Positions 5,415 to 26,397 of a DNA stretch of 43,082 nucleotides are shown piece after piece. Every line of letters begins with the position of its first letter. Positions within the stretch are counted from its first letter, which is position 1. A program made the translations under genes and the position numbers. Where the stretch lies: positions 1-43,082 of the forward strand of contig JAJZEV010000105.1 of the NCBI GenBank assembly GCA_021805665.1, given 5' to 3'. The notes beneath the pieces were generated by a model, which did no database searches, was not told where the DNA came from, and saw only the letters and a program-made list of their open reading frames with translations. This stretch comes from Pseudomonadota bacterium. GTDB taxonomy: Bacteria; Pseudomonadota; Alphaproteobacteria; Acetobacterales; Acetobacteraceae.

Positions 5415-5681
5415 ATGGCCAAACCGGTCAGCGAAGAAGAAATCAAGTCCGGCGGCGTTGCGGTCGATCGCCTGCGCAGCCTGGTCGAGCGTATCGAACG
5501 CCTCGAGGAAGAGCGTAAGGCTCTTGGCAGCGACATCAAGGATATCTACGCCGAAGCGAAGTCGGCCGGGTTCGACCCGAAAGTGTTGCGGCAGCTTATC
5601 CGTATCCGCAAGCAGGAAGCGGCTGAGGTCGAGGAGCAGGAGACGATGCTGGACATCTACCGCCGCGCGCTGGGGATGTAA
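5415..5681 (+). CDS. gapR: DUF2312 protein, GapR-type nucleoid-associated DNA-binding protein
   Basis: 88 aa. GGVAVDRLRSLVERIERLEEERKALGSDIKDIYAEAKSAGFDPKVLRQLIRIRKQE is a canonical DUF2312/GapR sequence. ATG at 5415. Confidence 0.93.
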   Translation: MAKPVSEEEIKSGGVAVDRLRSLVERIERLEEERKALGSDIKDIYAEAKSAGFDPKVLRQLIRIRKQEAAEVEEQETMLDIYRRALGM

Positions 5682-5762: not shown

Positions 5763-7235
5763 TCAGCATCTGGAAACAGTGCTCCCGACGATGGCATGGA
5801 AGCCTGCCTGCACCACGGCCTCCATACGGTTGCGGGCGCCAAGAGCTTTGTATGCGATTGCCAAGTGTGCCTTGACGGTGCCGATTCCGATATTCATGTG
5901 GCGAGCAATTTCCTTAACGGATTTGCCGTCCGCTAACAGCTGAATAGCGGCGGACTGCTGCAACGTGAGGCGCGGCGGGCTGGTTCGGTACGGCGACGTC
6001 GTCGCGGGCAGGTCGGCGGCATCGGGCCATGCGCTTGTTTCGCCGGAAAACTCGGTGCCGATCGTGGCATCGCAGCCCAGCACCAGGCGGTTGAATCCGG
6101 GACGGCGCGCTATCGCGAGGCATGCATCCACCACGCATGCGTCGAACTGCACGCCCCGGCCGCGCATGATTTCCGCGAGCGCCGAGGCCTGCCCAAGTGC
6201 CGGCCGGTACGGACGATGCGACATCATCGCTTCCACGACATCGGCAACCGCGACAATCCGTGCGCCCGGCACGATATCGTTGCCCTTCAGGCCTGCCGGA
6301 TAGCCGGATCCGTCGAGACGTTCGTGATGCTGCACGACCATTGTCGCGACCGGCCACGGAAATGGAAGACCTTTGAGGATAGCATAACCGGCTTCCGCGT
6401 GGGTCTGAAGCAGCCGGATTTCGTGAACGATAAGCTGCCCGGCCTTGCAGCATATCTCCAGCGGCACCGCGATTTTGCCGATATCGTGTAACAGGGCGGC
6501 AAATCGAATTCCCTCGATCTCGCCGGCGGAGAGGGTCATCTCCTGTGCGATCGCCACCGAAAGCGCGGCGACGTGCCTTTGATGGCTGGCGGTATATGGA
6601 TCGTGGCATTCCAGTGCCGTTGAAAGCGCCTGAGCGGTATCGGTCAGGACCGACAGCGCTGTCTGATACGATGCTTGCGCTTCGTTGCGCGCTTGCCATG
6701 CGTTGAGGACGGAGCCGAGCATGTCGGCGAATTCGACGAGATGCTCGACTTCCCGGGCATCGAATGCGTCCGGGTCGGCCGATGCCACGACGATGGCACC
6801 GAAGATCGAGGCTCCGACCTTCAATGGAATGGCCGCGTGCGCTATCGGTACGATGTCGAATCCCGCGGCCCGCCAGGGCGAGGCTGATGGGTTAGCCGCA
6901 TACGTGTGGATCGTGGGACGGATCGTGCGGACGGCGGTCGCGCAGCATAGCAGGCCGGAGTTCGCCGCATCCCCGTTCCGATGCAGCGTTTCGATCGCCG
7001 ATGTTTCGATACCATAGGAAGCGATGGGCCGAAGTGTCCTGTTGGCGTCGTTCGCGGCACGAAGCGCGCAGGCCAGCGCGTAACCGCCCTTCTCGACCAG
7101 GGTCCGGCACATTCCGGACAGCAATTCCGTTTCGCTGTGTGCATGGGCGATGGTGGCGCCACCATCCATGAACGCGCGAAACGCTGCCGCGGAGTCAAAT
7201 TTACCTTCGAGTGCAAGACGGACAGTCATACACAT
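5763..7235 (-). CDS. GAF - HD-GYP phosphodiesterase - LuxR-type HTH fusion protein
   Basis: 490 aa. HD-GYP motifs LLHDIGKIAVP, HHERLDGSGYPAGLKGNDI and DVVEAMMSHRPYRPALG. C-terminal LTLQQSAAIQLLADGKSVKEIARHMNIGIGTVKAHLAIAYKALGARNRMEAV is a GerE/LuxR HTH. The N-terminal region is GAF-like. Confidence 0.9.
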   Translation of the reverse strand: MCMTVRLALEGKFDSAAAFRAFMDGGATIAHAHSETELLSGMCRTLVEKGGYALACALRAANDANRTLRPIASYGIETSAIETLHRNGDAANSGLLCCATAVRTIRPTIHTYAANPSASPWRAAGFDIVPIAHAAIPLKVGASIFGAIVVASADPDAFDAREVEHLVEFADMLGSVLNAWQARNEAQASYQTALSVLTDTAQALSTALECHDPYTASHQRHVAALSVAIAQEMTLSAGEIEGIRFAALLHDIGKIAVPLEICCKAGQLIVHEIRLLQTHAEAGYAILKGLPFPWPVATMVVQHHERLDGSGYPAGLKGNDIVPGARIVAVADVVEAMMSHRPYRPALGQASALAEIMRGRGVQFDACVVDACLAIARRPGFNRLVLGCDATIGTEFSGETSAWPDAADLPATTSPYRTSPPRLTLQQSAAIQLLADGKSVKEIARHMNIGIGTVKAHLAIAYKALGARNRMEAVVQAGFHAIVGSTVSRC

Positions 7236-7295
7236 TATTCCAGATGAAGCCGGCTGCGACGGCTGTCACCCTACCGCGACTAATGCGAAGTTGTA

Positions 7296-7309
7296 TTGAT
7301 CTGGGTCAA
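7296..7309. promoter_or_regulatory. perfect FNR/FixK-type box TTGATCTGGGTCAA
   Basis: TTGAT-CTGG-GTCAA in the intergenic region 7236-7376, 61 bp upstream of the HD-GYP gene start codon. Confidence 0.7.
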
Positions 7310-7376
7310 CGCAACCCTCGTTCCGGCAACTCCAATTCCGACAGTGCCGTGTCGATGGCCAATCGACCGTTTTCGA

Positions 7377-8309
7377 CTACAGCGAAATCTTCAAGTACGA
7401 CGCTATTTCGCCGACGATACCCCGGCGGAATGCCAGCACGCAGACCATGAAGATCACGCCCTGGGTTACTGTCACCCAGGCGCCGAACTGCGCCAGATAG
7501 TTTTCCATCGATGTCACCACCAGCGCACCGACAGCAGGGCCGAATACGGTGCCCAGACCACCCAGCAGGGTGGTCAGCACGATCTCCCCGGATGTGGAGG
7601 AATGAACATCGGTCAGCGTGGCGATGCCGAACACGAGCGCTTTTGTGCCGCCGGCGATGCCCGCGATCGTGCAGGACAGCACGAACGCGATCAGCTTGTA
7701 ATCGTCGGTGCGGTAGCCCAGCGAGGTGGCCCTCGGCTCATTCTCGCGAATGCCTTTCAGGACCTGACCGAAGGGGGAGTGAATGATGCGATGAACCAGC
7801 AGGAAGCCGGCGAGGAACACGCCCGCGGTGACCCAATACATCGTCATGTCGTTCGACAGGTCGAGGAAGCCGAACAGGTGGCCGCGCGGGACCTGCTGGA
7901 TGCCGTCCTCGCCGCCGGTAAAGGGCGCTTCCAGGCAGAAGAAGTACACCATCTGCGCCAGGGCCAAAGTGATCATGGCGAAGTAGATGCCGGAACGGCG
8001 GATGGCCAGGAAGCCCAGCACCAGACCCAGCGCGGCACCGGTCAGGCCGCCGACGGCGATGGCGATCGACGCATCGACATGCCATGCCTTCATCGTCCAG
8101 GCGGCGACGTAGCTGCCCATGCCGAAGAAGGCGGCCTGACCGAACGACAGCAGGCCGACATAGCCGATCATCAGATTGAACGAGCATGCGAACAGCGCCG
8201 CTGTCAGTACCCGCATCAGGAACACCGGATACAGGACGAACGGGCAAAGCGCGATCAGCGCCACCATCAGGACGAAGGCGATGGATTGCGCCCGGGAAAA
8301 TCCGAACAT
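7377..8309 (-). CDS. livM: branched-chain amino acid-type ABC transporter permease LivM
   Basis: NLMIGYVGLLSFGQAAFFGMGSYVAAW... and GGLGTVFGPAVGALVVTSMENYLAQFG. The ORF extends to 8327, but ATG at 8309 (MFGFSRAQ) sits just past the livH stop. Confidence 0.92.
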   Translation of the reverse strand: MFGFSRAQSIAFVLMVALIALCPFVLYPVFLMRVLTAALFACSFNLMIGYVGLLSFGQAAFFGMGSYVAAWTMKAWHVDASIAIAVGGLTGAALGLVLGFLAIRRSGIYFAMITLALAQMVYFFCLEAPFTGGEDGIQQVPRGHLFGFLDLSNDMTMYWVTAGVFLAGFLLVHRIIHSPFGQVLKGIRENEPRATSLGYRTDDYKLIAFVLSCTIAGIAGGTKALVFGIATLTDVHSSTSGEIVLTTLLGGLGTVFGPAVGALVVTSMENYLAQFGAWVTVTQGVIFMVCVLAFRRGIVGEIASYLKISL

Positions 8310-26383: not shown

Positions 26384-26397
26384 TTGATCCATGTCAA
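26384..26397. promoter_or_regulatory. perfect FNR/FixK-type box TTGATCCATGTCAA in the cbb3 divergent promoter
   Basis: TTGAT-CCAT-GTCAA, 56 bp upstream of the small membrane gene and 35 bp from the divergent gene start. Confidence 0.85.

Follow-up and report, generated by a model that had tools for sequence, protein, structure and literature searches.

We propose, with a probability of roughly 85%, that the box at positions 7296–7309 of the window (the whole stretch of 43,082 nucleotides that was analysed) is a class II operator through which FixK, at the end of a FixLJ-FixK cascade, is predicted to drive an HD-GYP-LuxR gene under low oxygen. The proposal is read from the DNA sequence and concerns the following features.

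7296–7309, minus strand: FixK/FNR-type box, recognised by its sequence, its presence in 4/4 orthologous promoters and its rarity by chance.
5763–7229, minus strand: GAF-HD-GYP-LuxR gene (open reading frame opening at ATG 7235), supported by the reading frame, Pfam, dN/dS and the sole HD_5 match in the genome.
7377–8309, minus strand: livM-type branched-chain amino acid permease (Pfam PF02653), the upstream neighbour, whose end borders the intergenic region.
26384–26397, plus strand: another box of this class, located 56 bp ahead of a small open reading frame leading into ccoN (cbb3 oxidase).

On the plus strand the window holds TTGATCTGGGTCAA at 7296–7309, which in the direction of the gene (minus strand) reads TTGACCCAGATCAA. 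This sequence fits the 14-bp inverted repeat TTGA-N6-TCAA, whose preferred form is TTGAY-N4-RTCAA. The first-pass annotation had called the site a perfect palindrome; an FNR/FixK-type box is indeed present, but only its TTGA/TCAA arms are fully symmetrical, and the fifth pair sets T opposite G. The site is an ordinary one-off FNR/FixK box, which is a usual form of such boxes. It lies in a gap of 141 bp (7236–7376) that separates the end of livM from the HD-GYP gene, both of which are on the minus strand. Because an alignment of the orthologues shows the second ATG of the reading frame to be conserved, we placed the start at ATG 7229, probably the conserved start, rather than at ATG 7235. The short intergenic setting described at first thus stands, whereas the distance of 61 bp given with it becomes 60 bp to ATG 7235 and 66 bp to the probable start at ATG 7229. 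The livM gene is also the upstream neighbour in the two relatives that carry the gene, G019 (MAG ZJ7.bin13) and G005 (MAG UBA8620, deposited as Acetobacteraceae). Membership of the box in a liv operon was considered and rejected: the site lies beyond the end of livM, and no box follows those livM genes of the same genus that occur without the HD-GYP gene. On its other side, the HD-GYP gene faces a convergent gapR-like (DUF2312) gene at 5415–5681, which is found downstream of it in G019 and G005 as well.

The frequency of the box was compared with chance expectation using a first-order Markov model of the window. Under this model TTGAY-N4-RTCAA is expected 0.07 times in the 43-kb window, where it was observed twice, and about 0.0008 times in the 141-bp intergenic region. 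In the assembly as a whole (4.55 Mb), we counted 17 copies of TTGAT-N4-GTCAA and 15 of TTGAT-N4-ATCAA, whereas the reversed control patterns gave 1 and 0, and the looser core TTGA-N6-TCAA was found 55 times versus 14 for its control pattern. The commonest spacer of the symmetrical boxes, CCAG/CTGG (6/15), is also the spacer of the box at 7296–7309. The genome-wide scan that had been suggested as a check, carried out here with pattern searches rather than a full weight matrix, showed that the box class is strongly enriched and precedes FixK-type genes.

The second box in the window precedes ccoN, identified by NCBIfam TIGR00780 (724 bits), so that the same-class site first assigned to the cbb3 operon at 26384–26397 was confirmed. 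Other boxes precede cbb3, hemN, ppsA, universal stress protein and CBS genes and, further off, phaC, according to gene calls made with a simple codon-usage script, not a full annotation. About 350 bp separate the box TTGATGTACGTCAA (L007:1501–1514; contig C124:3768–3781) from a protoglobin-MCP gene downstream (L007:1862), possibly a chemoreceptor that senses oxygen and is controlled in the same way. On contig C165, a divergent cytochrome c-like gene and ppsA (PEP synthase-like) are separated by a region with two boxes spaced 47 bp apart (L009:1501–1514 and 1548–1561), the sole tandem case among the loci examined. A cluster of three boxes with hemN, FtsH and CBS proteins and a universal stress protein (L085:1–9965, contig C336) looks like a low-oxygen stress island.

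To follow the box across relatives, we searched for orthologues among 59 relatives, in 386 genomes belonging to the class and in the GTDB contig set. The full GAF-HD-GYP-LuxR architecture was found in four copies from three genomes (one in our own genome, two in G019 and one in G005), and in all four copies a box lies 65–66 bp before the conserved ATG. Its sequence is TTGACCCAGATCAA in our genome and, identically, in the first G019 copy, TTGACCCCAATCAA in the second G019 copy and TTGATGTCGATCAA in G005. This footprint comprises four sequences from three genomes, two of the sequences coming from one MAG with 7% contamination (G019); the named gene-bearing genomes are metagenome assemblies, and the second G019 copy is on a 2.5-kb contig. 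That copy (L057, G019:C579) comes with a box of its own and with a livM that shares 99% identity with the one in the window, and represents either a paralogue or a contaminating relative. The G005 copy (L029:1492–2913) ends about 20 residues early in the LuxR domain, after the recognition helix, and its G+C content of 56% is lower than that of the others.

Because the whole intergenic stretch is 70–76% identical between our genome and G019, these two genomes alone are weak evidence, and the same identity speaks for a box that arose by chance or was kept through recent common descent only, with no function. We regard such an origin as very improbable. In G005 the flanks are only 45–50% identical and the spacer has changed, yet TTGA and ATCAA are retained; the interval is expected to hold 0.0008 such sites; and the box is absent wherever the gene is absent. 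The last point comes from same-genus genomes in which the HD-GYP gene does not follow livM: TTGA-N6-TCAA was found within 500 bp after the same livM in 0/25 regions, these being the regions with enough downstream sequence. With the box at 4/4 genes and in 0/25 gene-less regions, the presence of the box thus follows that of the gene. No FixK-type box was seen in the promoters of HD-GYP relatives without the LuxR domain. More distant HD-GYP relatives (about 100 other loci) were also considered and set aside; two of them have a core within 300 bp upstream (L097, TTGACAACTTTCAA; L160, TTGAAGCAAATCAA), and neither core fits TTGAY-N4-RTCAA on both sides. Phylogenetic footprinting, which had been suggested as a further check, spoke for the site.

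The protein encoded downstream of the box has three recognisable domains.

6705–7142, minus strand: GAF_2 domain, residues 32–177 (Pfam PF13185, E=1.3e-13).
6138–6629, minus strand: HD-GYP domain, residues 203–366 (Pfam PF13487, E=3.2e-37), which aligns to 4mcw and 4r8z.
5808–5969, minus strand: LuxR/GerE helix-turn-helix, residues 423–476 (Pfam PF00196, E=1.5e-10), the domain with the lowest dN.

The HD-GYP motifs HDIGK (250), HHERLDGSGYP (303) and VADVVEAMMSHRPYRP (330) are intact, with the conserved His and Asp residues of HD and the GYP present, and the best sequence match among solved structures is a cGAMP phosphodiesterase. The C-terminal GerE helix-turn-helix scores 40.9 against a cut-off of 23.5 bits. 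Values of dN/dS among the orthologues range from 0.20 to 0.37, which indicates purifying selection, and the LuxR DNA-binding domain, with a dN of 0.039, is the most constrained of the domains. Assignment to the NosR-family response regulator phosphodiesterases (NF053512) was rejected, as the match reached 108.5 versus 400 bits, covered the HD-GYP part only and lacked the receiver domain. The gene product is predicted to be an HD-GYP phosphodiesterase fused to a predicted LuxR DNA-binding domain, and this fusion suggests a c-di-GMP enzyme that may act directly on promoters.

A candidate regulator is encoded on contig C25, where fixL, fixJ, a single-receiver FixT-like gene and fixK form a cluster; a box is located where fixJ ends, before the FixT-like gene. 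FixJ passes the NCBIfam cut-off. FixL is below its cut-off (637 versus 850 bits), as is FixK (217.8 versus 300 bits), whose best match is the Caulobacter FixK model. The recognition helix of FixK is TIETVSR, which we take to be typical of TTGA-reading FNR-type proteins, and the protein is highly conserved across the three species that carry the gene, with identities of 96% in G019 and 92% in G005. The receiver-only gene between fixJ and fixK (L076:6667–7035), with the box before it, is weakly FixT-like (46 bits, cut-off 150) and possibly encodes a feedback regulator of FixL. Among the PF13545 matches in this 94.5%-complete genome we found no Fnr/FnrL with an N-terminal cluster of four cysteines, and control by an Fe-S Fnr/FnrL was provisionally set aside on this ground. 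Since no such protein was found, we name FixK of the FixLJ-FixK cascade, rather than a generic Fnr, as the likely regulator of the HD-GYP-LuxR gene.

The box could instead be read mainly by another member of the CRP/FNR family, in which case the gene would respond to NO, redox or some other signal, not to oxygen through FixLJ. Such a protein might be one missing from the assembly (Fnr or NnrR), given its 94.5% completeness, or the FtrB-like CRP/FNR protein of contig C88 (best NCBIfam match FtrB, 149 bits; recognition helix QENLSR), which is encoded downstream of its own box and could compete. We consider this unlikely: the boxes of the genome precede classical FixK genes as well as the FixT-like and fixK genes, FixK itself accompanies the HD-GYP-LuxR gene in each of the three species, and a four-cysteine Fnr-type protein was not seen.

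The direction of the predicted FixK control can be judged from the layout of the promoter, in which one further feature was recognised.

7268–7273, minus strand: -10-like hexamer TAGGGT, 22 bp downstream of the box, with a predicted transcription start near 7261.

The intergenic box occupies an activator position relative to this predicted -10 element. At 22 bp after the box, the hexamer reads TAGGGT in our genome and in the first G019 copy and TAGGCT in the second, while G005 has TAAGAC at 21 bp. When the 27 other box-gene pairs of the genome were examined (leaving out the 7296–7309 site), a gap of 22 bp, out of all gaps between 8 and 44 bp, stood out with the highest counts both of TA and of a second-position A. 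FNR-family proteins can repress, and a FixK that occupied the box and kept the gene off in microoxia would also suit the weak match of TAGGGT to the -10 consensus (3/6 bases); a simple generic sigma-70 scan detected neither a full consensus promoter nor a terminator. Repression nevertheless seems to us quite unlikely. A spacing of 22 bp between box and -10 is that of class II activators, which makes activation likelier than repression, and this activator arrangement is enriched among the box promoters of the genome. Moreover, the listed box-bearing genes of Bradyrhizobium diazoefficiens are mostly activated by FixK2 (PMC9104804). The best reading of the sequence is a predicted class II promoter activated by FixK.

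Because the box is real and is kept in every close relative found with the gene, low oxygen very probably induces the HD-GYP-LuxR gene, as far as sequence can tell. By analogy with homologues, low oxygen would lead the haem kinase FixL to phosphorylate FixJ, which would raise FixK. FixK would then bind 7296–7309, an operator in which the box would take the place of the -35 region (class II), recruit RNA polymerase and have a single gene, GAF-HD-GYP-LuxR, transcribed. Its product is a predicted c-di-GMP hydrolase and DNA-binding protein, so that oxygen shortage would lower c-di-GMP and also supply a second-tier transcription factor, gated by the ligand of the GAF domain or by c-di-GMP turnover. 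The oxygen control of a c-di-GMP effector put forward in the first-pass annotation is thus supported by the boxes at FixK genes, the footprint and the predicted FixLJ-FixK cascade, while the word effector gives way to a predicted phosphodiesterase-LuxR fusion.

The HD-GYP-LuxR gene stands apart among the c-di-GMP genes of the genome. It carries the only HD_5 match, and is thus the sole HD-GYP gene; the other c-di-GMP-domain matches are 6 GGDEF, 5 EAL and 2 PilZ. The idea that boxes are general at c-di-GMP genes was rejected, as TTGA-N6-TCAA is absent from the loci examined for these other matches, which leaves the HD-GYP-LuxR gene as the sole box-bearing one among the turnover and PilZ receptor genes. 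Tentatively, and at somewhat less than an even chance in our estimate, oxygen in this lineage may control c-di-GMP via one dedicated gene, with FixK driving the sole HD-GYP protein, itself a LuxR-type DNA-binding protein. If this is true, the enzyme made at low oxygen would act as a trigger, reading or degrading c-di-GMP and passing the outcome directly to promoters, and a single protein would connect the FixLJ-FixK oxygen cascade with transcription controlled by the second messenger. Whether a cell swims or settles is influenced both by oxygen limitation and by c-di-GMP. The case offers a single gene, a single box and a single regulator for testing, and the many same-genus species without gene and box provide natural controls.

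The box, the FixLJ-FixK cascade and HD-GYP enzymes are each well known, whereas the wiring of FixK to an HD-GYP-LuxR gene appears to be undescribed: a literature search for HD-GYP with LuxR, FNR or FixK, with subscription papers mostly outside it, returned no account of such control. A close counterpart is the FixLJ-FixK2 system of B. diazoefficiens (PMC9104804). It shares the type of cascade and the class of imperfect 14-bp palindromic box. In the rows of its target table consulted, the start of the box ranges from -22 to -203 relative to the start codon (PMC9104804); that at 7296–7309 begins at -74 or -80. The FixK2 list includes hemN2, ppsA, phaC2, a universal stress protein, a CBS protein and a response regulator, and the overlap with the genome studied here comprises cbb3, hemN, ppsA, universal stress protein and CBS genes and a FixJ-like regulator (PMC9104804). 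The response-regulator box of B. diazoefficiens, TTGACCTGGATCAA, is identical to the box before the FixT-like and fixK genes here, and unlike here, no HD-GYP or other c-di-GMP gene is named in the part of the FixK2 target table consulted (PMC9104804). With the Caulobacter FixLJ-FixK-FixT system (PMC7078487) our genome shares fixL, fixJ, a single-receiver FixT-like gene and fixK, although the receiver here reaches only 46 bits against the FixT cut-off of 150 and immediately precedes fixK. A connection of FNR-type regulators with biofilms is already known from SinR of Agrobacterium, where low oxygen is tied to biofilm maturation (SinR/FnrN) through a canonical FNR-type site that precedes a regulator gene (PMC4018554); unlike the regulated protein here, SinR is itself of the FNR family and no HD-GYP enzyme is involved (PMC4018554). 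Finally, the HD-GYP domain can be aligned over its full length with the structures 4mcw (PmGH), 4r8z (PA4781) and 5z7c (cGAMP phosphodiesterase), with HDIGK and HHExxDGxGYP present. A Tyr stands here where 4mcw has Glu in the DPETQNH stretch, and the metal content may differ; unlike in these three structures, the HD-GYP domain is joined here to a GAF domain and, at the C-terminal end, to a LuxR helix-turn-helix.
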